Positions 53,410 through 64,000 of a stretch of 64,000 bases of DNA are shown here, piece by piece (the first letter of the stretch is position 1; the number at the start of each line of letters is the position of its first letter). Source of the DNA: Bacillus sp. ISL-45. Lineage in GTDB: Bacteria > Bacillota > Bacilli > Bacillales > Cytobacillaceae. The notes below the pieces were generated by a model, which saw only the letters and a list, made by a program, of their open reading frames with translations, was not told the origin of the DNA and ran no database searches. The stretch covers positions 1 to 64,000 of the forward strand of contig NZ_JAGGQQ010000006.1 of the NCBI RefSeq assembly GCF_018613195.1, given 5' to 3'. Position numbers and translations under genes: made by a program.

Positions 53410-53437
53410 TTGAATATTTCAATATAAACGTTATAAT
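53410..53437 (+). promoter_or_regulatory. promoter of the acyl-CoA cluster
   Basis: TTGAAT (53410-53415) and TATAAT (53432-53437) are 16 bases apart, ahead of the first SDR gene. The palindromic operator at 53453-53468 lies just downstream of the expected start site. Confidence 0.65.
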
Positions 53438-53452
53438 AAAGTTTATAATACA

Positions 53453-53468
53453 TACCGACCGGTTAGTA
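53453..53468. promoter_or_regulatory. candidate TetR operator A of the acyl-CoA cluster
   Basis: TACCGACCGGTTAGTA is a 16-base palindrome (TACCGACC against TACTAACC) just downstream of a good -10. A site matching it at 15 of 16 positions occurs at 56595-56610 before the second half of the cluster. Confidence 0.75.
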
Positions 53469-53489
53469 GAAAGCTTTAGGGGGAATAAA

Positions 53490-54242
53490 ATGAGATTAGG
53501 AGACAAGACAGCGATCATTACTGGCGGTGCCAGTGGAATTGGCCGTGCAGCCGCACGTCGCTTTGCCGCTGAAGGAGCCCAGCTGGTAATCGCAGATGTG
53601 AATTGTGATGGCGGCAGAGAGACAGCCCAGCTTATTGAACAACAGGGGGGCAAGGCTCTTTTTATCGAAACAAATGTAAGCGATTCCAAACAGGTGAAAG
53701 ATCTCGTTTCAGCAACTGTTGAAGCATACGGAAAACTGGATATTCTCTTTAATAACGCAGGCATAGGCAATCCGGATGTTAAAAGTGTTGATCTCGCTGA
53801 AGACGATTGGGACAGAATTATAGATATTAATCTTAAAAGTGTTTTCCTCGGCATAAAACATGCTGTTCCTGAACTGAAAAAGGCTGGTGGAGGAGCGATC
53901 ATCAACACCTCTAGCTTGCTTGGAATAAAGGGGCAAAAATATCTTGCCGCTTACAACGCATCCAAGGCTGGCGTTATCCTTCTGACCAAAAATGCAGCAT
54001 TGGAATACGGCAGGGATTATATCCGTGTAAATGCAATAGCCCCGGGTGTCATCGATACCCAGATTATAGATGGCTGGAAAAATGATGAGCGGAAGTGGCC
54101 GATCATTTCGAGAGCAAATGCCTTGGGGAGAATTGGAACACCCGAGGAGGTCGCTAATGCCGTCCTGTTCCTCGCCTCTGATGAAGCTTCTTTTATTACT
54201 GGTGCGACATTGTCAGTCGACGGCGGTGGACTGACATTTTAG
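53490..54242 (+). CDS. SDR family oxidoreductase
   Basis: A 250-residue Rossmann-fold dehydrogenase. The cofactor motif TGGASGIG is at residues 11-18, NNAG follows near 88-91, the catalytic serine is in NTSSLLG, and YNASK supplies Tyr and Lys. It ends with the usual FITGATLSVDGGG. It is suited to 3-hydroxyacyl-type oxidation, though the substrate is open. I begin it at ATG 53490 behind AGGGGG; a longer frame from 53298 runs through the promoter and operator. First gene of the acyl-CoA cluster. Confidence 0.85.
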   Translation: MRLGDKTAIITGGASGIGRAAARRFAAEGAQLVIADVNCDGGRETAQLIEQQGGKALFIETNVSDSKQVKDLVSATVEAYGKLDILFNNAGIGNPDVKSVDLAEDDWDRIIDINLKSVFLGIKHAVPELKKAGGGAIINTSSLLGIKGQKYLAAYNASKAGVILLTKNAALEYGRDYIRVNAIAPGVIDTQIIDGWKNDERKWPIISRANALGRIGTPEEVANAVLFLASDEASFITGATLSVDGGGLTF

Positions 54243-54282
54243 CCATATACAATTAAGTAAAATTTAGAATGGGGGAAATCAA

Positions 54283-55896
54283 ATGAGCGAGAACAATGTC
54301 TGGCTTTCCAAGTATCCTGACTCCATTGCATCCACTATCACAATTCCTGAAAAATCTTTGCCGCAAATGCTTCGAGAATCAGCAGAGAAGTATCCTCTTA
54401 ACAATGCCTTATCCTTCTATGGCAGAAAAATCACATATGAACAGTTGTCCCAGAATGTGATGCATTTTGCATCAGCACTGCAAAACAGAGGAGTAGAGGC
54501 TGGAGACCGGGTGGCTATCATGCTCCCGAATTGTCCTCAATATGTCATTTCCTATTTTGGCATATTGACTGCAGGTGCGATCGTTACACAGGTGAATCCA
54601 ATGTCCGTTGAACGTGAGCTTGAATATATCCTTAATGACTCAGGAGCGGAAACAATTGTAGTGTTTGATGCGCTCTATGCCAAAGTGAAAAGTGTTGAGG
54701 CTTCTACTAAACTTAGAAATATCATAGTTGTCAGCCTGCAGCCTTCTGAGCATACTTTTGCACCAGACACAAAATTTGAAGTGTTTTTATCAGAAAGCAG
54801 CGGCAGGACATCCGTGGTCGATGTTAATCCTCTTGAGGATGTTGCCGTGCTCCAGTACACGGGCGGCACAACAGGACGATCCAAAGGTGCGATGCTAACT
54901 CATCGAAACCTTCTGGCCAATGTACTGCAATCCCATGAATTTTTCAAGAATGATATCAAACCTGGTGTTGAGCGTTCGTTGACGGTCATCCCCCTGTTCC
55001 ATGTATTTGGGATGACAGCCTGCATGAACCTATCAATCTATACAGGCGCAGAGATCATTTTATTGCCTCGCTTTGACCTGGAAGAAGTCCTGAATACGAT
55101 AAAAAATGAACAGCCAACGATGTTCCCTGGGGTTCCGACGATGTATGTCGCGATTACGAACCATCCGAAAGCGGAGGAGTATGGAATCGGCAGCATAGAA
55201 ATATGCAACAGCGGGAGTGCGCCAATGCCAGTAGAACTCCTAAAAGAATTTGAGAGAAAAACTGGTTCAAAGATCCTTGAAGGCTATGGCCTTTCGGAAG
55301 CATCGCCAACTACCCATTGCAATCCAAGCTTTGCTGAAAGAAAACCCGGAAGTGTCGGCATCGGCATGCCATCAACAGAATACAGAGTCGTCGACCTGGC
55401 AACAGGAAAAGAAGAAGTTCCAGCTGGAGAGCTGGGTGAAGTAATCATTAAAGGCCCGCAGGTTATGAAAGGCTACTGGAATATGCCAGAGGAGACAGCA
55501 AACACATTGAGGGATGGATGGCTTTATACAGGAGATATTGCAAAAGTTGATGAAGAAGGATATTTATATATTGTCGACCGAAAAAAAGACATGATCATCG
55601 CGAGCGGTTACAATATTTATCCACGTGATATTGAGGAAGTATTGTATGAACATCCGTCTGTCCAGGAAGCCGTTGTCATCGGCATACCGGATGAATACCG
55701 CGGCGAAGCAGTCAAAGCAGTGATCGTCCTAAAAGCAGGAAAGGAAGCCGATGAAGCACAGATCAAGGAGTTCTGCCGACAGAATATGGCTGCCTACAAG
55801 GTACCAAACGTCGTCGAATTCCGTGAACAGCTGCCGAAGACAAGTGTGGGCAAGATTTTGCGAAGAGCACTAAGGGAAGAAGTAAGGAGTAAATAA
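54283..55896 (+). CDS. long-chain acyl-CoA ligase (AMP-forming)
   Basis: A 537-residue ANL-superfamily enzyme that makes acyl-CoA via acyl-AMP. The phosphate loop YTGGTTGRSKG begins at residue 192; GYGLSEASP, the GDIAKVDEEGYLYIVDRKKD hinge region and the C-terminal lysine motif KTSVGKILRR are all intact. It sits 40 bases after the SDR gene in the same unit and carries GGGGGA before the ATG. A second, different acyl-CoA ligase lies at 61731, suggesting different chain types or steps. Confidence 0.9.
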   Translation: MSENNVWLSKYPDSIASTITIPEKSLPQMLRESAEKYPLNNALSFYGRKITYEQLSQNVMHFASALQNRGVEAGDRVAIMLPNCPQYVISYFGILTAGAIVTQVNPMSVERELEYILNDSGAETIVVFDALYAKVKSVEASTKLRNIIVVSLQPSEHTFAPDTKFEVFLSESSGRTSVVDVNPLEDVAVLQYTGGTTGRSKGAMLTHRNLLANVLQSHEFFKNDIKPGVERSLTVIPLFHVFGMTACMNLSIYTGAEIILLPRFDLEEVLNTIKNEQPTMFPGVPTMYVAITNHPKAEEYGIGSIEICNSGSAPMPVELLKEFERKTGSKILEGYGLSEASPTTHCNPSFAERKPGSVGIGMPSTEYRVVDLATGKEEVPAGELGEVIIKGPQVMKGYWNMPEETANTLRDGWLYTGDIAKVDEEGYLYIVDRKKDMIIASGYNIYPRDIEEVLYEHPSVQEAVVIGIPDEYRGEAVKAVIVLKAGKEADEAQIKEFCRQNMAAYKVPNVVEFREQLPKTSVGKILRRALREEVRSK

Positions 55897-55975
55897 ATAC
55901 TTTCTCCGTAATGGGACAGGGGGTAAAATATGGTATAATTTCTGTGCAGACTAGTAGGATTGCGAGGACAGCAAA

Positions 55976-56539
55976 GTGAAAGAAAAAATTACCGCACATA
56001 GCATAAGATTATTCGAGGTAAAAGGTTTCAGTGAGACTTCAATCCAGGATATTGTCGACTCACTAGGGGTGACTAAAGGTTCGTTTTATTATTACTTTTC
56101 CAGCAAAGAAGAATTACTGATGGATATACATCTCAGATATATTGACGAGTTATTAAGCCGTCAGGAAGAAATTCTTTTAGAACAGTCGACAAGCAAGCAA
56201 AAATTGTTTGACATCGTTTATATGCTGATCAGCAGCATTAAGTCAAAAGGGGCATCCGCAAAAATCTTTTTCAGGGAAATGCGTCACTTAAGTGATGACA
56301 GGCTGGCACAGATTGTCGCAAAGCGTGATCAATTCAGATCGAATGTGGAACGGCTGATTCGCGAAGGAATTGACAGCGGCGAGTTCCGAAAAGATTTGAA
56401 TCCCATCATCGTCACCTTTGGCATACTTGGTGCCGCAAACTGGAGCTACCAGTGGTTCAATCCAATGGGAAAGGTATCTGACCGGGAAGTGGCCGAGATT
56501 TTTGTCGAAATGATCCTGAAGGGAATCGAAGTCAATTGA
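55976..56539 (+). CDS. TetR/AcrR family regulator of acyl-CoA cluster
   Basis: A 187-residue regulator with the N-terminal helix-turn-helix ETSIQDIVDSLGVTKGSFYYYFSSKEELL (in part) and a helical ligand domain. It starts at GTG 55976 behind GAGGACAG. Being embedded in a fatty-acid-type cluster with matching palindromes in front of both halves, it is the likely repressor, released by an acyl-CoA or related ligand, as known for FadR/PsrA-type TetR proteins. The ligand is inference. Confidence 0.85.
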   Translation: MKEKITAHSIRLFEVKGFSETSIQDIVDSLGVTKGSFYYYFSSKEELLMDIHLRYIDELLSRQEEILLEQSTSKQKLFDIVYMLISSIKSKGASAKIFFREMRHLSDDRLAQIVAKRDQFRSNVERLIREGIDSGEFRKDLNPIIVTFGILGAANWSYQWFNPMGKVSDREVAEIFVEMILKGIEVN

Positions 56540-56553
56540 AGAAATATGTAGGG

Positions 56554-56587
56554 AGAGGCTTATGAAAGCCAAGCCTCTTTCTTTATT
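56554..56587 (+). terminator. terminator of the TetR gene
   Basis: AGAGGCTT / AAGCCTCT with a nine-base loop followed by TTCTTTATTTTTT. It separates the two halves of the cluster transcriptionally. Confidence 0.85.
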
Positions 56588-56594
56588 TTTTACA

Positions 56595-56610
56595 TACCAA
56601 CCGGTTAGTA
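56595..56610. promoter_or_regulatory. candidate TetR operator B
   Basis: TACCAACCGGTTAGTA, one base different from operator A, lies 34 bases before the thioesterase start codon. No clear -35/-10 pair is visible around it. Confidence 0.75.
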
Positions 56611-56643
56611 CGAAGAAATTCCGAATAGAAAGTGGGGAGACAA

Positions 56644-57045
56644 ATGCAGGAAATCCAGGTACAGGCACGATTTGGCGAGACGGACGCGCTAGGACATATT
56701 AACAATACCAGTTATTTTGTCTATCTGGAGGAGGCAAGGATCCGCTTTTTTGAAACATTGGGCTACCGCATGGAATTGAACGACTGGAAATTCATTTTAG
56801 CTTCCACCAAATGTGATTTTGTCAGCCAGGGGTATTTCGACCAGCTGTTGACGGTAAAAACATTTGTATCAAGAATTGGTTCGAAAAGCTTCCAGCTAGA
56901 ACATGACATTGTCTGCACGCAGACGCAGCAGTTGATTGCAAAGGGCAATGCAATCATTGTGTATTATGATTTTACAAATCAACAGAGTCAGGTTTTACCC
57001 GAATTGCTAAAAGAAGGGCTGAAAAGCTATTTGCTGCCCGCATAA
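56644..57045 (+). CDS. acyl-CoA thioesterase (4HBT hot-dog fold)
   Basis: A 133-residue hot-dog thioesterase. The catalytic-site pattern ETDALGHINNTSYFVYLEEAR (in part) near residues 12-32 is the 4HBT/YbgC type, in which the Asp in the first part acts as the general base. It would release acids from acyl-CoA. I begin it at ATG 56644, eight bases after GTGGGGAG. It opens the second half of the cluster behind operator B. Confidence 0.82.
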   Translation: MQEIQVQARFGETDALGHINNTSYFVYLEEARIRFFETLGYRMELNDWKFILASTKCDFVSQGYFDQLLTVKTFVSRIGSKSFQLEHDIVCTQTQQLIAKGNAIIVYYDFTNQQSQVLPELLKEGLKSYLLPA

Positions 57046-57081
57046 ATAACTGAATATTCCGTATATACAGGAGGTGTCGGA

Positions 57082-57861
57082 GTGAGATTCCAAGAAACAG
57101 TGGTTCTTGTTACAGGAGCGGGGAGCGGAATCGGAAAAGCGACAGCCGCTCGGTTTGCCAGTGAAGGGGCAAAAGTAATATTGGTTGGGCGGACGAAATC
57201 TAAGCTTGAGATGGCAGCAAAAGAAATAAATGAATTGCATGAGCTTCCTAGGGCTGAAATCTTTCCTGCTGACGTAACAGATGAAGATGATGTCAGCGAG
57301 TTAGCATATTACATGGAGGAGCAATTTGGCGACCTGCATGTCCTTGTGAATAATGCTGGAGGTTCTGTCCACTCAAAAATCATGGACACCTCAGCCAGTG
57401 ATTGGGACTTTGTACAAAATACGAATTTAAAAAGTGTTTTCCTGGTCTCGAAAACGCTTGGGAAGCTCATGGCAAAAAGTTCAGAGAAGGAGGGAGATTT
57501 TTCTCAAAACCGTTCAATCGTCAATGTAGCCAGTTTATCCGGACACCAGGCAGGTGCGCATATCCCCCATTACAGTGCTGCTAAAGCTGGTGTCATCAAT
57601 TTTACAAAATCAATGGCATTGGAATTGTCTCCTTACGGGATAAGAGTCAATTCAGTATCACCTGGTTTTGTGGAAACTCCCCTGACTGAGAAGGGGATGA
57701 AGAATGAACAATTTGTTAAAGCAATCAGAAGAAATACAGCTCTAAGGCGAGCTGGCAATCCCGATGAAATCGCGAATGTGATTGCTTTTGTCGCATCAAG
57801 TGAAGCTTCTTACATGACGGGTTCAGACATTCTCGTTGATGGCGGCTGGTTGATTAAATAG
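57082..57861 (+). CDS. SDR family oxidoreductase
   Basis: A 259-residue Rossmann dehydrogenase. TGAGSGIG (residues 11-18), NNAGGS, the serine in NVASLSG and YSAAK form the standard catalytic set; the C-terminus MTGSDILVDGGW is typical. It starts at GTG 57082 with AGGAGGTG upstream. It probably oxidises a hydroxyacyl or related alcohol intermediate. Different from the first SDR of the cluster. Confidence 0.85.
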   Translation: MRFQETVVLVTGAGSGIGKATAARFASEGAKVILVGRTKSKLEMAAKEINELHELPRAEIFPADVTDEDDVSELAYYMEEQFGDLHVLVNNAGGSVHSKIMDTSASDWDFVQNTNLKSVFLVSKTLGKLMAKSSEKEGDFSQNRSIVNVASLSGHQAGAHIPHYSAAKAGVINFTKSMALELSPYGIRVNSVSPGFVETPLTEKGMKNEQFVKAIRRNTALRRAGNPDEIANVIAFVASSEASYMTGSDILVDGGWLIK

Positions 57862-57900
57862 GTTTATGATTCTATTAAAATCTGAGAAAGGGTGAACGCT

Positions 57901-58692
57901 ATGACGAATGTTAAGACGAGTGACCATTTAATCATCAACAAAAATGGGGCAGTACTTTCCTTGACCTTAAACAGACCAGAAAGCTTGAATTCCTTCAGCC
58001 CGGAAATGATTCTTACACTGACGGAGGAATTAAGAGAGGCACAGAACAACCCAGAGGTAAAGGTAATCGTTTTGTCCGGTGCCGGCCGGTCGTTCAGTGC
58101 TGGCGGCGATGTAAAAACAATGGGCGAGGCACAAGCGACAGGCGTATATGACCATATCGGAAGGCTGAATGAGTGTATTCTTGCCATGAAAGCTACAGAG
58201 AAGCCAATCATTGCAGCAGTTCATGGTTTTGCTGCGGGTGCAGGATTCAACCTTGCCCTTGCTTGTGACTTGATTGTCGCTGCCGATGACAGTAAATTTG
58301 CGCTGAGCTTCTCGCAGGTTGGCCTCGTCTCTGACGGCGGTGGTTCCTATTTTGTCCCAAGACTAGTTGGACCGCATCTGGCAAAACAATTCATGTTCAC
58401 TGCAGAACCAATTCCGGCAGAGCGATTATACCAGTTGGGCGTAATTAACTATCTCAAACCTGTAACAACTTTACAGGAAGAAACACTGAAGCTTGCCACT
58501 CAGCTGGCAAATGGGCCGACCAGAACATATGGGATGATCAAGAAGCTGGTTGACCATTCAATGACAGCAACTCTGGAAGAAATTCTTGAGCAGGAACGTA
58601 TCACACAGACCATGATGGTATCAACTGAAGACCATCAAGAAGGCATTGCAGCCTTCAAGGAAAAAAGAAAACCAAAATTTACAGGCAACTAA
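57901..58692 (+). CDS. enoyl-CoA hydratase/isomerase
   Basis: A 263-residue crotonase-fold enzyme. The oxyanion-hole segment GAGRSFSAGGDV and HGFAAGAGFNLALACDL are both present. In the second catalytic segment (FSQVGLVSDGGGSYFVPRLVG, in part) an Asp stands where the hydratase glutamate would be, as in PaaG-type isomerases, so isomerase rather than hydratase activity is possible. I begin it at ATG 57901, six bases after AAAGGGTG. 11 bases before the MDR gene. Confidence 0.83.
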   Translation: MTNVKTSDHLIINKNGAVLSLTLNRPESLNSFSPEMILTLTEELREAQNNPEVKVIVLSGAGRSFSAGGDVKTMGEAQATGVYDHIGRLNECILAMKATEKPIIAAVHGFAAGAGFNLALACDLIVAADDSKFALSFSQVGLVSDGGGSYFVPRLVGPHLAKQFMFTAEPIPAERLYQLGVINYLKPVTTLQEETLKLATQLANGPTRTYGMIKKLVDHSMTATLEEILEQERITQTMMVSTEDHQEGIAAFKEKRKPKFTGN

Positions 58693-58703
58693 GGAGGCAA
58701 TTC

Positions 58704-59678
58704 ATGAAAGCAATCCAACTGAAAGAATATGGCGGTCCGGAGGTTCTCCTATTGGCAGAGATGGAAAGACCAGTACCTACAGATCATCAAGTATTAATTG
58801 AAATCCATGCGATCGGAGTCAATTATGCGGACACAGCAAGAAGAGAAGGACTGTATGTCATTCCTACTAAACTGCCGTTTATACCTGGAGCAGAAATTGC
58901 GGGAATTGTAGTTGAAACAGGAGAATCCGTAACAAATGTTCAGGCCGGCGACCGCGTTGTTACCTTAATCGAATCTGGAGGTTACGCTGAATTTGCCCTT
59001 GCTGACAGCCGCGGGCTCATTCCTTTGCAGGACCATATGGAATTTGAACAGGCAGTCGCTCTCCCGCTTCAAGGTCTAAGCGCATATCACATACTGAAAA
59101 CGATGGGACGGCTGGAAAAAGGTGAAACAGTGCTAGTCCATGCAGCAGCTGGAGGAGTAGGCACTTTGGCTGTCCAATTAGCAAAGCTATCAGGTGCAAG
59201 CAAAGTAATAGCAACCGCTAGCACTGATGATAAACTCTCTTTAGCCGCTGAAATGGGAGCTGATGTACTTGTCAATTACACTGAACAGGGATGGGAAGAA
59301 AAGGTTTTGGAAGCAACCGGCGGTAAAGGTGTGGATGTTGCCCTAGAAATGGCAGGAGGGGAAATTTTCAATAAAACGTTGAAATGCCTTGCCACGTTCG
59401 GTCGGCTGGTTATCTATGGAGTTGCCAGCGGGGAGCAGAGCCGCTTTTATCCATCATCCTTAATGGCCAGAAACCAGTCAGTCATCGGGTTTTTCCTGCC
59501 GCAAATCATGAGAAAGCCGGCGCTGATCCAATCAAGTATGGCTGAAATGCTTGGATATTTATCGAAGGGCCAATTAAAACTGACAATTGGAGGCGTTTAT
59601 TCGCTTGAGCAGGCAGCAGAAGTCCATCGCCTTTTGCAATCACGGCAGACGAAGGGAAAACTGATTCTAAAACCTTAA
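58704..59678 (+). CDS. MDR-family quinone oxidoreductase (zinc-independent)
   Basis: A 324-residue medium-chain dehydrogenase/reductase. It opens MKAIQLKEYGGPEVL, typical of the quinone-oxidoreductase branch, lacks the zinc-binding cysteines of alcohol dehydrogenases, and has the NADP-site segment VHAAAGGVGTLAVQLAK near residues 147-163. It would reduce an enone, enoyl or quinone-type substrate. AGGAGG lies before the ATG. Co-transcribed with the flanking hydratase and lactonase genes. Confidence 0.85.
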   Translation: MKAIQLKEYGGPEVLLLAEMERPVPTDHQVLIEIHAIGVNYADTARREGLYVIPTKLPFIPGAEIAGIVVETGESVTNVQAGDRVVTLIESGGYAEFALADSRGLIPLQDHMEFEQAVALPLQGLSAYHILKTMGRLEKGETVLVHAAAGGVGTLAVQLAKLSGASKVIATASTDDKLSLAAEMGADVLVNYTEQGWEEKVLEATGGKGVDVALEMAGGEIFNKTLKCLATFGRLVIYGVASGEQSRFYPSSLMARNQSVIGFFLPQIMRKPALIQSSMAEMLGYLSKGQLKLTIGGVYSLEQAAEVHRLLQSRQTKGKLILKP

Positions 59679-59693
59679 TAAGGGGTGTGCTGA

Positions 59694-60692
59694 ATGGCAA
59701 GTATTAATACGGTAACTGGTCCTATTAAAGCGGAGCAATTGGAGAAGACGCTTATTCATGAGCACTTTATCTTTGGGTATCCTGGCTTCCAGGGTGATGT
59801 GACATTGGGTGGATTTAATGAAGAATCAGCTCTCGAAGAGGCAATCAACATTGCCAGGTACATGCAGAGCTTTGGGGTAAAGACAGTCGTGGATCCGACC
59901 CCAAATGAATGTGGAAGAAATCCAGAGTTTTTAAAGAAAGTCTCGGAAGCTACCGGTCTCCAGATTATTTGTGCCACTGGCTATTATTACGAAGGGGAAG
60001 GAGCAACCCCTTATTTCAAGTTCAGGCAGGCATTGGGCACCGCGGAGGAAGAAATCTATCAAATGTTCAAGAAAGAGTTCACCGAAGGTATCTCAGGTTC
60101 GGGCATTAAGCCTGGAGTGATCAAACTGGCGTCCAGCAAAGGTGAAATCACAGAGTATGAAAAGATGTTTTTCCGCGCGGGCGCCCGTGTACAACAGGAA
60201 ACAGGCGCAGTAATCCTCACCCACACCCAGGAAGGAACAATGGGTCCTGAACAAGTAAGGTTACTGATTGAACACGGAGCAGATCCTGGAAAAATCATCA
60301 TCGGCCATATGTGTGGAAATACCGACCCCGAATATCATAAACAGGTTCTGGACCAAGGCGTCCGGATTGGCCTGGACCGTTTCGGCATCCAGGGTATGGT
60401 AGGTGCACCTTTTGACCATGAACGGGTACAGACTCTGCTGGCATTACTGACTGAAGGGTACGAAGATCAAATTTTACTTGCACATGATACCGTGAATATC
60501 TGGCTCGGCCGCCCGCCTGTTATGCCGGAGCAGGCCGCGAAGATTATGGAAAACTGGCAGCCAGGCCATATTTTCAACAATATCTTGCCACAGCTTAGAG
60601 AAAATGGAGTGTCAGAAACGCAAATTGATAAGATGCTCGGCGGAAATGCTGTTGGACTTTTCACTGGGGCTCCGGCAAAGGTAGTATCCTAG
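59694..60692 (+). CDS. phosphotriesterase-like lactonase
   Basis: A 332-residue amidohydrolase-fold enzyme with every metal ligand of the phosphotriesterase-like lactonase group: H22 and H24 in IHEHF, the bridging carboxylated lysine K144 in GVIKLAS, H177 in LTHTQEG, H205 in IGHMCGN, and D265 in LAHDTV. This spacing equals that known for the Geobacillus enzyme GkaP with a shift of one. Such enzymes open lactones, including acyl-homoserine lactones, and have side activity on organophosphates. AAGGGGTG lies before the ATG. Confidence 0.85.
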   Translation: MASINTVTGPIKAEQLEKTLIHEHFIFGYPGFQGDVTLGGFNEESALEEAINIARYMQSFGVKTVVDPTPNECGRNPEFLKKVSEATGLQIICATGYYYEGEGATPYFKFRQALGTAEEEIYQMFKKEFTEGISGSGIKPGVIKLASSKGEITEYEKMFFRAGARVQQETGAVILTHTQEGTMGPEQVRLLIEHGADPGKIIIGHMCGNTDPEYHKQVLDQGVRIGLDRFGIQGMVGAPFDHERVQTLLALLTEGYEDQILLAHDTVNIWLGRPPVMPEQAAKIMENWQPGHIFNNILPQLRENGVSETQIDKMLGGNAVGLFTGAPAKVVS

Positions 60693-60743
60693 AAACAGTT
60701 CTCAGAGCTGATTCAAGATTCTAGTAGAAAGGGGCGATGACCT

Positions 60744-61688
60744 ATCCAAACAATTATACCTCTTACGCTGGATTCGCCTTTTTCTGAAGGGATCGTGGTA
60801 GTGTATGCCGTTCTTGGTGAAACAGCAACACTTATAGATACAGGCAATCCAGGCGAGAAATCCTTTTACCAGCTGAAATCACAATTAAGAGAGCATAATC
60901 TCAGTTTTAAAGACTTTGACCATATAATCGTGACCCATATGCATACGGACCATTGTGGAGGAGTCAGCCTGATCCAGCAGGAAGCGAGCCTTCCCGTGTA
61001 TGTACATGAGCTTGCAAGGCCAGTGATCACTGGAGGAGAACCAGAGTTTAATAGAATCAATCAGTTTTTTAGTGATTTTCTAAAGGAATGTGGTGCTGAC
61101 CCTACTGTTCATCAGCATGCACGGAAATACAAAGAAGAAATCTGGCAGAATGTCCAATATGTCAATGAAGGCGATGAAGTACACATAGGAGGAAGACCCT
61201 ACAGTGTGTTGCATGTTCCCGGACATAGCCAGACAGATATCCTTCTGATTGATGAGGAGCAGGGGATTACATTTGTCGGTGACCATATCATTCCCGAGCT
61301 GGCCGTCAACGCCTTTATTGAGCCTCCGGTACCAGGGGGAAAGCATCGTCCGTCTCCATTGATTCAATACAGGGAATCCCTGATTCGGTCAAAGGGGAGA
61401 AACCTGGGAAGATGTTATTCAGGACATGGACTTCCCTTCACACAGCACATTGAGCTCATTGGTAAAAGATTGGCTCAGCAGGATGCACGCTGTCAGCAAA
61501 TACTTCAGGTTTTAAATGAGCGTGATAAAAAAGTTTTCGAGATTTGCCAGGAGGTCTACCCGCACTTGAAGGGGGAAATCGTTTTTCTTGGGCTCTCACA
61601 AATACAGGGGCATCTGGATTTGATGGAATCCCGAAATGAGGTGATGAAAGAGGTACAGGATTCAATTGTTTCTTATAAGCTGATCTGA
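60744..61688 (+). CDS. MBL-fold metallo-hydrolase, start codon unclear
   Basis: An MBL enzyme of about 315 residues with THMHTDHCGG, GHSQTD, GDHI and a C-terminal SGHG metal site. The family's first strand (TIIPLTLDSPFSEGIVVVYAV, in part) is encoded well upstream of the first GTG in frame (60795). The frame is open back to 60741. The only position with a good ribosome binding site (AAAGGGG at 60728-60734) is ATC 60744, nine bases later, so either ATC is used or an ATG has been lost (one base change). An alternative is a single-base indel next to ATG 60737. C-terminal helical domain from about residue 220. Confidence 0.65.
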   Translation: MQTIIPLTLDSPFSEGIVVVYAVLGETATLIDTGNPGEKSFYQLKSQLREHNLSFKDFDHIIVTHMHTDHCGGVSLIQQEASLPVYVHELARPVITGGEPEFNRINQFFSDFLKECGADPTVHQHARKYKEEIWQNVQYVNEGDEVHIGGRPYSVLHVPGHSQTDILLIDEEQGITFVGDHIIPELAVNAFIEPPVPGGKHRPSPLIQYRESLIRSKGRNLGRCYSGHGLPFTQHIELIGKRLAQQDARCQQILQVLNERDKKVFEICQEVYPHLKGEIVFLGLSQIQGHLDLMESRNEVMKEVQDSIVSYKLI

Positions 61689-61730
61689 TAGTTGCCAAGG
61701 CTTCTTATACTTTTAACAGGAGAGGATTAA

Positions 61731-63248
61731 ATGAAGCTGAAAGAGCTGCTTGAAAATAATATCAGTAAATACGGGGAATATCCATTTATCTATTATAAAG
61801 ACCTGCAATATACAAACATTGAAACGAGGCAGTACGCTGACCGGATAGCGAATGGTCTCCAAAAGCTCGGAGTGGGAAAAGGCGACCGAATTGTCGTCTG
61901 TATGCCAAATAACCCAGAAGTGATATTTTCCTATCAGGGCATTACCAGAAGCGGTGCCATCATTGTTCCAATTATGTTCACCCTTCATCCGAAAGAAATT
62001 CAGTACATCATTAAAAATTGTGAAGCCAAAGTTGTCATTGCCTCTTCCTATACAGCAGAAAATTTGAAAAAGGCGTTAGAAGCCCTGGAAGTCAAACCAA
62101 CCCTGGTCGTTACAGATCTTCCTGGTAGTAATGATTTTTTAAACCTCTATGATCTGATGTCTTCGGAATCAGCTGACTCCGAGGATGATTCTGACGAAAA
62201 CGAAACCGCCGTGATTTTATATACCTCAGGAACGACTGGAAATCCGAAAGGCGTTCTATTGACCCACAAAAATCTCTACACCAATGCAGTCAACTCCGCA
62301 GCCCATAATGAAACCGAAAGAGGCGTTACGATTGGCGTCCTTCCGTTAGCGCATGTATATGGTCTTACCATATCGAATACGTGCTATATAACGGGAAGTT
62401 CAGTTGTTGTTTTCGCCCGGTTTGATCCAGAAGAAATTTTCAAAGCTATTGAGACTTATAAAGTAAAAGCTTTCTCCGCAGTCCCTGCTATGATTCATGC
62501 AATGGTTGGCAGCCCAAAAGCCGACCAATATGATACATCCTCCCTTGAGTGGATTGGCTCAGGGTCCGCACCGCTGCCTATCGCGCTCCTGAACGGTTTT
62601 ACCCAGAAGTTCGGCGCGAAAGTATTTGAGGGTTATGGATTATCAGAAGCAGCCCCAATCGTAACAGCGCATAATAAAAAAATTGAAATAAAACCAGGTT
62701 CAGTCGGAATACCGATTCCAGGGGTCAACATAAAAATTGTTGATGATCAGGGAAGTGAAGTCCCTGCAGGAAAGGTTGGCGAATTGATTGTCTCAGGTGA
62801 CAATGTTACCCGGGGATACTACCAGAATAGTGAAGAAACAAACAAGGTAATCAAGGAAGGCTGGCTTTTCACCGGTGATATGGCCAGAGTTGATAACGAA
62901 GGCTATCTCTATATTGTCGACAGAAAAAAGGATTTGGTGATCAGGGGCGGCTTCAATGTATATCCTCGTGACATTGAAGAGCTGCTGAACGCCCATGAGT
63001 CTGTCTCGGAAGCCGCGGTTGTCGGTATACCTGACGAAATGATGGGCGAGGAAATTGTTGCATGTGTCGTGAAAAATGCGGGCGCATCACCAACAGAAGA
63101 AGAACTGATCCTTTACTGCCAGGACAATCTGGCCAAAAACAAAACACCGAAGCGGATTGTTTTTATGGAAGCTATGCCACGGAACGGAGTCGGCAAGATC
63201 CTCAAGACCCGTCTAAGAGAAACAACTGCTACTATCATCACAAAATAA
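61731..63248 (+). CDS. long-chain acyl-CoA ligase (AMP-forming), second
   Basis: A 505-residue ANL-superfamily ligase. YTSGTTGNPKG begins at residue 164; GYGLSEAAP, GDMARVDNEGYLYIVDRKKD and the C-terminal GVGKILKTRLRE lysine motif are intact. It differs from the first ligase of the cluster in length and in the acyl-pocket region, so a different acid is likely. CAGGAGAGG lies before the ATG, and the R2lox gene follows 24 bases later. Confidence 0.9.
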   Translation: MKLKELLENNISKYGEYPFIYYKDLQYTNIETRQYADRIANGLQKLGVGKGDRIVVCMPNNPEVIFSYQGITRSGAIIVPIMFTLHPKEIQYIIKNCEAKVVIASSYTAENLKKALEALEVKPTLVVTDLPGSNDFLNLYDLMSSESADSEDDSDENETAVILYTSGTTGNPKGVLLTHKNLYTNAVNSAAHNETERGVTIGVLPLAHVYGLTISNTCYITGSSVVVFARFDPEEIFKAIETYKVKAFSAVPAMIHAMVGSPKADQYDTSSLEWIGSGSAPLPIALLNGFTQKFGAKVFEGYGLSEAAPIVTAHNKKIEIKPGSVGIPIPGVNIKIVDDQGSEVPAGKVGELIVSGDNVTRGYYQNSEETNKVIKEGWLFTGDMARVDNEGYLYIVDRKKDLVIRGGFNVYPRDIEELLNAHESVSEAAVVGIPDEMMGEEIVACVVKNAGASPTEEELILYCQDNLAKNKTPKRIVFMEAMPRNGVGKILKTRLRETTATIITK

Positions 63249-63272
63249 GCGATTTACCGAGGAGGAGTGCAA

Positions 63273-64000
63273 GTGGAACAAAGAACAATATTAACAACCA
63301 GCAAGCGGGGGTTGCAGACGGACTCATTCCCATTCCGTCTCTATCAAAAAGCGAAGAAATTCGGCATCTGGAACCCTGCTGACATTGATTTTACCCAGGA
63401 CCAACAAGACTGGAGGCAGCTTGACGCCGAACAGCAAAATGATATTCTGCGCCTGATTTCACAGTTCCAGGCTGGTGAGGAAGCCGTTACCCTCGATTTG
63501 CTGCCGCTGATCATGGCCATTGCTAAGGAAAACAGGCTGGAGGAGGAAATGTTTTTAACCACCTTCTTATTTGAAGAAGCCAAGCATACAGAGTTCTTCC
63601 GGCTTGTCCTGAATGCGCTGGGTGAAACAGGTGACCTATCAGGACACCATACAGCTACGTATAAAACGATTTTTTATGAAATCCTGCCGACTGCGATGGA
63701 CAGGTTGCTTTTAGACCAATCACCTGAAGCTATTGCCGAAGCAGCGACTGTTTACAATATGTTCGTTGAGGGAGTCCTTGCTGAAACAGGCTACTACTCA
63801 TTCTATCAAAATCTTGAAACACTCGGTTTGATGCCAGGACTGCTCAGGGGGATTGGGAATTTGAAAAGAGATGAATCCAGGCATATTGGCTATGGGACCT
63901 TCCTGCTGCAAGATTGATTTGTGAGCATCCACATTTATACGAGTTTGTTGAAGGTAAAATGCAGGAATTGACCCCGCTTGCCATCCGTTTGAACCAGGAG
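63273..64000 (+). pseudogene. R2-like ligand-binding oxidase (R2lox), frameshifted and cut by window edge
   Basis: A ferritin-like Mn/Fe oxidase related to ribonucleotide reductase R2. From GTG 63273 (behind GGAGGAG) the metal ligands appear as E69 in GEEAVT, E102 and H105 in EEAKHTEFF, E166 in VEGVLAE, and E201 and H204 in DESRHIG; V72 and Y161 are the pair that forms the Val-Tyr ether cross-link in known R2lox. The frame stops at 63917, but the natural continuation (ICEHPHLYEFVEG) runs on in another frame to the window end. One missing A near 63910 explains it (LQRLICEH restored). Real mutation or sequencing indel cannot be told apart here. Confidence 0.8.

Follow-up and report, generated by a model that had tools for sequence, protein, structure and literature searches.

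Four described systems come close to the locus considered here, the Rhodococcus plasmid operons treated further below being one of them. In Geobacillus kaustophilus, the gene for an R2-like ligand-binding oxidase (R2lox; GkR2loxI) belongs to the GK2769-GK2782 cluster, together with genes for an aldehyde dehydrogenase (ALDH), an alcohol dehydrogenase (ADH), an acyl-CoA ligase (FadD) and β-oxidation enzymes, and crude lysates containing Geobacillus R2lox depleted C10-C22 alkanes (available extracts of PMC10867098, 2024); an alkane-inducible P21-type protein also figures in that work. In the lva system of Pseudomonas putida, which also includes an acyl-CoA ligase, LvaB and a regulator, the kinase LvaA phosphorylates 4-hydroxypentanoyl-CoA and LvaC then eliminates the phosphate, leaving an enoyl-CoA, while mammalian ACAD10 and ACAD11 perform both steps (extracts of PMC11342911 and PMC12440821). 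The Geobacillus-type phosphotriesterase-like lactonases (GkL; structures 3f4c and 3ojg) belong to a family that is thoroughly characterised at the enzyme level but whose biological functions are called unknown in the accessible part of PMC3468530; according to the same source, some members take γ- and δ-lactones but not acyl-homoserine lactones (AHLs), and GkL likewise prefers side chains of 5-6 carbons. We analysed the first 64,000 bases of a 356-kb contig of Bacillus sp. ISL-45 (genome 4.6 Mb), hereafter the window, in which a run of eleven genes carries both a lactonase of this type and an R2lox. At a probability of about one half, our preferred reading is that the run is part of a TetR regulon of three units, in which one set of genes (module A) would serve the catabolism of lactones and 4-hydroxyacids, and R2lox would belong to a second, independent module (module B).

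The run occupies the + strand from 53,490 to 63,917 with intergenic gaps of 11-104 bp, and reads short-chain dehydrogenase (SDR1), AMP-forming-type ligase (FadD1), TetR, 4HBT thioesterase, SDR2, crotonase, medium-chain dehydrogenase/reductase (MDR), lactonase, metallo-β-lactamase (MBL)-fold hydrolase, a second ligase of the same kind (FadD2) and the R2lox frame. This is the closely spaced, same-strand series that an earlier note, made from the window alone, had listed. The same genes stand in the same order in 13 of 13 congeners having R2lox, so the order is not due to chance ("genus" and "congeners" refer to Mesobacillus throughout, after the named Mesobacillus records among the nearest R2lox relatives). 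The cluster does not end in R2lox, as that note had it, since genes for ALDH (64,205-65,734), an iron-type ADH (Fe-ADH; about 65.8 kb to 66,983) and an acyl-CoA dehydrogenase (67,068-68,285) continue on the same strand past the window. Beyond a reverse-strand peptidase-like gene and a superoxide-dismutase-like gene, a second unit begins at 71,227 with genes for an acyl-CoA dehydrogenase (ACAD2), SDR3, two hydratase-type proteins, ACAD3, ACAD4, SDR4, a thiolase and a kinase, and closes at 80,566 with a 2-phosphosulfolactate-phosphatase-like gene. It is followed by an esterase-like gene, FadD3 and LivHMGFK-type transporter genes, up to 87,938; the transporter and the esterase-like gene were named by eye from the sequence. 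Because ALDH, ADH, the kinase and the ACAD11-type enzyme all lie past base 64,000, they were out of sight when the earlier note was made.

The lactonase has 3f4c as its closest solved relative (residues 3-324, E = 7e-151) and resembles the Geobacillus-type enzymes over its full length. The stretches HEH, KLASS, THTQ, GHMC and HDTV are common to the two proteins and may hold the metal ligands. Orthologues with at least 72% identity were found in 36 of 193 genomes of the family, 21 of them outside the genus. We fetched 19 of these family loci (genome G164 was included only as an R2lox locus, L061, and G145 was not among the lactonase loci) and scored a gene as present at 28% identity or more over at least 40% of the query, a threshold at which paralogues can count. 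All 19 loci outside Mesobacillus carried TetR, the kinase and crotonase; FadD1 was present in 18, SDR1 in 15, MDR in 14, SDR2 in 13 and the thioesterase in 11, and R2lox, ALDH and ADH were in none of the 19. R2lox was likewise absent from 20 lactonase loci of other families, which were chosen rather than drawn at random, ten from those linked to the kinase and ten from the unlinked. The ten linked loci, from five other families, contained the kinase, the thioesterase and ACAD4 in every case, SDR2 in nine, and LivH and FadD3 in eight each. Their order, with gaps, is ACAD4-SDR4-(thiolase)-SDR1-FadD1-TetR-thioesterase-kinase-phosphatase-like, continuing SDR2-crotonase-MDR-LivHMGFK-FadD3-lactonase. 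Module A is an operon that is conserved across Bacillales, in six families, and that is found without R2lox. Like the lva system it combines kinase, LvaC/ACAD11-type dehydrogenase and acyl-CoA ligase, with kinase and dehydrogenase as separate genes, but it adds a lactonase and a LivHMGFK-type transporter within the operon and a TetR gene nearby; and unlike GkL as described in the extracts of PMC3468530, the lactonase is set in a catabolic operon. The species of our named-record and genome sets overlap, and the counts from the two were kept apart.

The position of the kinase varies among relatives. In Neobacillus, an APH-family kinase (Pfam, L215 copy) lies between the thioesterase and SDR2 genes, and its relative in the window genome, at 78,754-79,818, is in the unit behind a third copy of the operator-like palindrome described below. 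This kinase matches the ACAD11 kinase domain (9e-51), with the HYDYKLNN and GLFDWE stretches aligned, and matches the solved bacterial kinase 9o56 better still. For ACAD4 (75,546-76,760) the match to human ACAD11 reaches 8e-142, with the nearest ordinary family at 7e-43; ACAD4 and ACAD11 share the stretch LADGPDEVH, in which the D would, by our own placement, be the active-site aspartate specific to ACAD10/11. We then scored 348 genomes, sampled evenly across the order (lactonase at E ≤ 1e-100, kinase at E ≤ 1e-60; G622 and G811 were scored kinase-positive from the genome table). The lactonase was found in 46 genomes and the kinase in 161, among them all 46 with the lactonase; the Fisher value of 7e-18 for this association ignores relatedness among the genomes. 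The two genes lay within 20 kb of each other in 26 of the 46 genomes and, when Mesobacillus was set aside, in 21 of 40, all 21 within 15 kb. The opening of a γ-lactone gives a 4-hydroxyacid, which is the entry substrate of the kinase route.

The company of R2lox is a different one. More than 100 R2lox-like places are listed in the GTDB family; we fetched 80 stretches, leaving out weak places that resembled true R2 subunits, and compared them with the window proteins at strict match thresholds. The stretches were 20 kb long, so some neighbours were cut off. At non-genus loci whose R2lox is at least 75% identical, FadD2 lies directly upstream in 40 of 50 and MBL accompanies it in 20 of 50, ALDH lies directly downstream in 37 of 49, and Fe-ADH is present in 41 of 48. 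One of 49 loci had the lactonase in the 8 kb upstream of R2lox, and the other module A genes were similarly scarce (MDR, SDR2 and thioesterase 2/49 each, crotonase 4/49, TetR 7/49). Below 75% identity, the counts were 0/15 for FadD2, 0/12 for the lactonase and 5/16 for each of ALDH and ADH. A lactonase-R2lox link as a general rule was rejected on the figure of 1 in 49. We also clustered 46 divergent R2lox loci without reference to the window and profile-scanned three of their 22 commonest neighbour families. Fe-ADH was present in 30, always on the same strand, ALDH in 26 (22 of 28 ALDH genes on the strand of R2lox), and a divergently transcribed LuxR-type regulator, whose GAF match was just under the cut-off, in 22. 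This regulator adjoins R2lox at, for example, L176, L181-L183, L185-L187 and L189, and R2lox has thus switched regulator. R2lox with ALDH and ADH, often with FadD as well, is a self-standing module, an R2lox cluster of known kind, and in the window genome these four stand in a single run, as in the Geobacillus-type alkane cluster. The window R2lox is in a different subclade from GkR2loxI; at their beginning, the divergent copies L113-L114 resemble the Geobacillus protein more closely. The lactonase, the kinase, MBL and a TetR operator are not named for GK2769-GK2782 in the available extracts of PMC10867098.

The two modules are joined in Mesobacillus and, partly, in two other genomes. Neobacillus terrae (L061/L133) has the lactonase and R2lox modules together, with no kinase in the L061 stretch, and in Bacillus sp. 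T33-2 (L145) a large part of module A, minus the lactonase, adjoins R2lox. Seven of 20 congeners lack R2lox, and three of these (G070, G086 and G089) keep parts of module A; G070 also keeps ADH and ACAD, showing that the R2lox module is not always lost whole. The comparisons bear on several points of the earlier note, which had read the run as a dedicated pathway where R2lox oxidises an acyl-type substrate and the other enzymes, the lactonase, MBL and SDRs among them, process the product. The neighbourhoods that it proposed to compare bore out the ligase (FadD2, 40/50) and, in part, MBL (20/50) as companions of R2lox, but not the lactonase (1/49) or SDR2 (2/49), and a central role for R2lox is not supported. 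Instead of forming a single pathway, the run splits largely into units of unlike origin, an outcome that the earlier note had itself named as a refutation, although in Mesobacillus these units share an operator. The acyl-CoA and lactone theme holds, as a Bacillales lactonase-kinase operon with its own TetR. The statement that R2lox has no established substrate now has to be read beside the 2024 claim of alkane hydroxylation from crude lysates (PMC10867098, in extract), a claim that is not settled.

When no more than one mismatch is allowed, the genome holds three copies of the palindrome ACCNACCGGTNGGT, at 53,454 (before SDR1), 56,596 (before the thioesterase) and 71,141 (before ACAD2). The SDR1 and thioesterase sites are both kept in 13 of 13 R2lox congeners when a slightly looser pattern is used, and each has 13 of its 14 operator positions unchanged throughout a 14-sequence alignment, compared with 82 of the 123 and 28 of the 157 positions that flank them, respectively. 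The third site forms a nearly perfect palindrome of 26 bp, and a site lies 61-93 bp upstream of ACAD2 in all 16 non-genus family loci for which the ACAD2 start was fetched. A palindrome of this type is beside TetR in ten of the ten linked loci of other families, a count for which no control pattern was run, and several congeners have one or two further scattered sites. It is the place and the conservation of the sites, and these alone, that speak for a predicted operator. The sigma-70-like promoter ahead of SDR1 is conserved in the 14-sequence alignment; since 26 sites fit its pattern where 18.9 are expected, the call is weak when taken alone. A hairpin follows TetR (9 of 200 shuffles fold equally well), and because of this hairpin and the second operator copy before the thioesterase, the run probably comprises at least two transcription units. 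The cluster had been called TetR-controlled in the earlier note; the TetR gene does lie within the run and the conserved palindrome at the units, and the window TetR would be the protein that binds it. Identity of this TetR with Bacillus FadR was ruled out (61 bits against the NCBIfam cut-off of 200). Thermus PfmR is a possible parallel for such an operator.

We envisage the following arrangement, whose reactions, inducer and pairing of repressor with operator are all inferred, and in which the assignment of module A draws on gene company and family chemistry. A single TetR-family repressor probably controls three neighbouring units, SDR1-FadD1-TetR (53.4 kb), the genes from the thioesterase to the acyl-CoA dehydrogenase (56.6-68.3 kb), and the β-oxidation unit from 71.2 kb. 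The lactonase would open a γ- or δ-lactone, a FadD ligase would convert the product to the hydroxyacyl-CoA, the LvaA/ACAD11-type kinase would phosphorylate its hydroxyl group, and the ACAD11-type dehydrogenase would remove the phosphate to leave an enoyl-CoA, whose breakdown crotonase, an SDR and thiolase could complete. The LivHMGFK-type transporter, which is part of the module A operon in other families and is also present on the contig studied here, may import the acid. R2lox, together with ALDH, Fe-ADH and FadD2, most likely takes an alkyl chain through alcohol, aldehyde and acid to the acyl-CoA, and in Mesobacillus this module would sit within the same regulon as module A. The gene content, the operator copies, the co-location of the genes and the split between the modules were observed directly.

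Several results weigh against this reading. Kinase homologues are present in 115 of 302 lactonase-free genomes of the 348-genome sample, so the kinase is not lactone-specific, and 20 of the 46 lactonase genomes have no close linkage of the two genes (G088 misses by 20 bp). In the ten unlinked loci of other families, FadD3 alone is beside the lactonase in five and the kinase in none. ACAD4 is in 9 of the 19 family lactonase loci and was not found in nine extended Neobacillus loci, one further locus not being extendable; an ACAD4 does occur at R2lox loci of Neobacillus, L072 and L074 among them. The number of palindromes is not enriched, with 10 places for a reversed control pattern against 3 in the window genome and, for a longer pattern in which two mismatches were allowed, 15 matches where its control has 25, and the count is uninformative because the control gives more places. 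The mammalian and lva routes take short to long 4-hydroxyacids (extracts of PMC11342911 and PMC12440821), a range that would admit more than one acid here. Finally, the alkane claim for R2lox rests, in the accessible part of PMC10867098, on crude lysates and on a two-ligand mutant that lost only part of the activity.

In another reading the architecture is right and the substrate class wrong: the kinase and the ACAD11-type enzyme would use a different hydroxyacyl-CoA, be it branched, cyclic or isoprenoid, while the corresponding lactone would be opened by the lactonase. Such families accept a broad range of substrates, and MDR, crotonase and the LivHMGFK-type transporter would suit several acids, but the reactions stated for the kinase/dehydrogenase pair concern only 4-hydroxyacids and their neighbours in the extracts of PMC11342911 and PMC12440821, and we regard such a change of substrate as unlikely, though it stands next after the preferred reading. 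The locus could also be an alkane and fatty-acid cluster around R2lox, in which the lactonase and the kinase are incidental passengers of a general β-oxidation regulon. The likeness of R2lox-ALDH-ADH-FadD to the Geobacillus alkane cluster and the many genes of ordinary β-oxidation families would fit this; the conservation of the lactonase-kinase operon without R2lox in several families would not, and the idea seems to us doubtful and ranks lower.

Lower again, and in our judgement improbable, is a pathway fed by R2lox, in which in-chain hydroxylation of fatty acyl groups followed by β-oxidation would yield 4- or 5-hydroxyacyl-CoA and hence lactones that module A rescues. Such a connection would account for the shared run and operator in the window genome and in the 13 of 13 R2lox congeners, for the parts of module A beside R2lox in N. 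terrae (L061/L133) and T33-2 (L145), for the pair of a kinase and an ACAD11-type enzyme, more distantly related (45% and 70%), that Neobacillus rhizophilus has near its R2lox (L091/L152), and for the β-oxidation unit with its operator near R2lox in 16 non-genus family loci. Hydroxy fatty acids were, moreover, co-purified with Geobacillus R2lox, although the bound acid was argued not to be turned over (both from the extracts of PMC10867098), and the distribution speaks against the connection, with the lactonase near R2lox in only 1 of 49 non-genus loci and R2lox absent from the 19 family and 20 other-family lactonase loci. If it were true, Mesobacillus would have a complete cycle of oxidising, lactonising, opening, phosphorylating and burning, and a Mn/Fe oxidase would be tied to a bacterial ACAD11 pathway. 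Destruction of the AHLs of other bacteria, a quorum-quenching role that has been proposed for the lactonase family, is highly improbable here, given that some members take γ- and δ-lactones but not AHLs (extracts of PMC3468530) and that the lactonase is set in a catabolic operon. The two-module reading is the one that we retain.

The oxidase named in the earlier note is present in broken form. Its frame in the window genome is incomplete and is broken after residue ~215, with a stop at 63,917 after 216 amino acids, and the last 83 residues are in a different frame (63,914-64,165). The 13 congener copies align across this stretch without a stop, and the four full-length copies that were read have 297-299 amino acids; the break thus looks private to the window assembly, whether as a mutation or as a sequencing error. 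In a fifth congener (L057, G085), a TGA codon occurs a few residues before the R2lox end, a second, independent defect in the genus. The window fragment matches Geobacillus R2lox 4hr0 (E = 8e-65) and scores 68 bits for PF00268 in the Pfam scan, and the R2lox of congener locus L048, with 341.7 bits, passes the NCBIfam NF006202 equivalog cut-off of 315. Six metal ligands, E71, E104, H107, E168, E203 and H206, are invariant in 17 of 17 aligned sequences, including the fragment, the Geobacillus ligands being E69, E102, H105, E167, E202 and H205 (extracts of PMC10867098). The putative cross-link pair V74/Y163 (V72 and Y162 in the Geobacillus type) is invariant in the alignment as well, and ligands and pair all lie before the break.

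Features of the window from 53,410 onward, with the basis of each assignment
Feature	Position	Strand	Basis
Sigma-70-like promoter before SDR1, TTGAAT-16-TATAAT	53410..53437	+	consensus match 10/12
Operator-like palindrome 1, core ACCGACCGGTTAGT at 53,454	53452..53467	+	pattern search, alignment
SDR1, short-chain dehydrogenase (module A)	53490..54242	+	Pfam/NCBIfam; start codon by reading
FadD1, acyl-CoA ligase (module A)	54283..55896	+	Pfam/NCBIfam
TetR-family regulator (module A)	55976..56539	+	Pfam; below FadR equivalog cut-off
Terminator-like hairpin 3' of TetR	56553..56592	+	fold -11.1 kcal/mol, z -2.0
Operator-like palindrome 2, core ACCAACCGGTTAGT at 56,596	56594..56609	+	pattern search, alignment
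4HBT thioesterase (module A)	56632..57045	+	Pfam; start 56,632 GTG or 56,644 ATG
SDR2 (module A)	57082..57861	+	Pfam/NCBIfam
Crotonase, enoyl-CoA hydratase family (module A)	57892..58692	+	Pfam/NCBIfam
MDR oxidoreductase (module A)	58704..59678	+	Pfam/NCBIfam
Phosphotriesterase-like lactonase (module A)	59694..60692	+	Pfam; match to 3f4c
MBL-fold hydrolase, candidate start	60795..61688	+	Pfam; with module B in 20/50 non-genus loci
FadD2, acyl-CoA ligase (module B)	61731..63248	+	Pfam/NCBIfam, neighbourhoods
R2lox first part, 216 amino acids, ends at stop	63267..63917	+	PF00268, alignment

The start of MBL may be a non-AUG codon (60,738-60,800). When five congener MBL loci were read by hand, ATC or ATT, and no ATG, GTG or TTG, was found at the start that the ribosome site places on the conserved N-terminal frame. 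Among the other loci inspected, L233-L235 carry SDR1-TetR-SDR2-crotonase-MBL-FadD2-ADH with the β-oxidation unit and the operator, lack R2lox and ALDH, and have FadD2 adjoining ADH; L108 (G180) and L111 (G065) each hold three R2lox genes in a single 20-kb stretch, beside ALDH and ADH. Congener G070, which lacks both R2lox and the lactonase, has its kinase in two abutting frames near L238 (G070:C232:31586-32633). The record behind L132, a Mesobacillus-like cluster under the title Chryseobacterium sp. ISL-80, is probably mislabelled.

In a sample of the phylum, 13 of 398 genomes matched the R2lox alignment, several of them weakly, and in five strong matches outside the family (G460 and four genomes of one genus) ALDH adjoins R2lox (L240, L242-L245). 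Of 32 plasmids with R2lox-like matches we examined six, namely three of six from Rhodococcus, one from Geobacillus and two haloarchaeal; two Mycobacterium and six Streptomyces plasmids are among the records left out. The three Rhodococcus plasmids (pROB01, pR8L1 and pRB11) likewise carry R2lox with ADH and ALDH, and on two of the three a fatty acid-CoA ligase is within the stretch shown, but the operons differ in having an NDMA-type ADH, a ferredoxin, an FAD oxidoreductase, and SCP2 and MCE genes; at L208, two-component regulators rather than TetR adjoin R2lox. Because the Rhodococcus ADH is from a different family, the same steps were seemingly assembled more than once. A similar gene set is, we presume, present around Rv0230c-Rv0234c of Mycobacterium tuberculosis. 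At the haloarchaeal R2lox genes (Haloterrigena and Halomarina), the ALDH/ADH pair was not seen within 10 kb, which counts against a single role for all R2lox proteins. On Haloterrigena plasmid pHTUR01 (L212), an MDR of the NADPH:quinone oxidoreductase type and FabG come after R2lox, with genes of fatty-acid-synthesis type, for a ketosynthase and a malonyltransferase, lying opposite, and this R2lox may have a biosynthetic use.

In the open-access literature searched, we found no paper linking Geobacillus-type lactonases with LvaA, ACAD11 or R2lox. The presence of the lactonase with an ACAD11-type kinase and dehydrogenase in an operon conserved in six families of Bacillales makes the role of these lactonases testable by growth and enzyme assay. 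For R2lox, a hydroxylase that would be fed with electrons externally finds support in the genomes, namely in its ALDH/ADH company and in the ferredoxin, the FAD oxidoreductase and the ADH of a different family in the Rhodococcus operons, and this support does not depend on the Geobacillus work.

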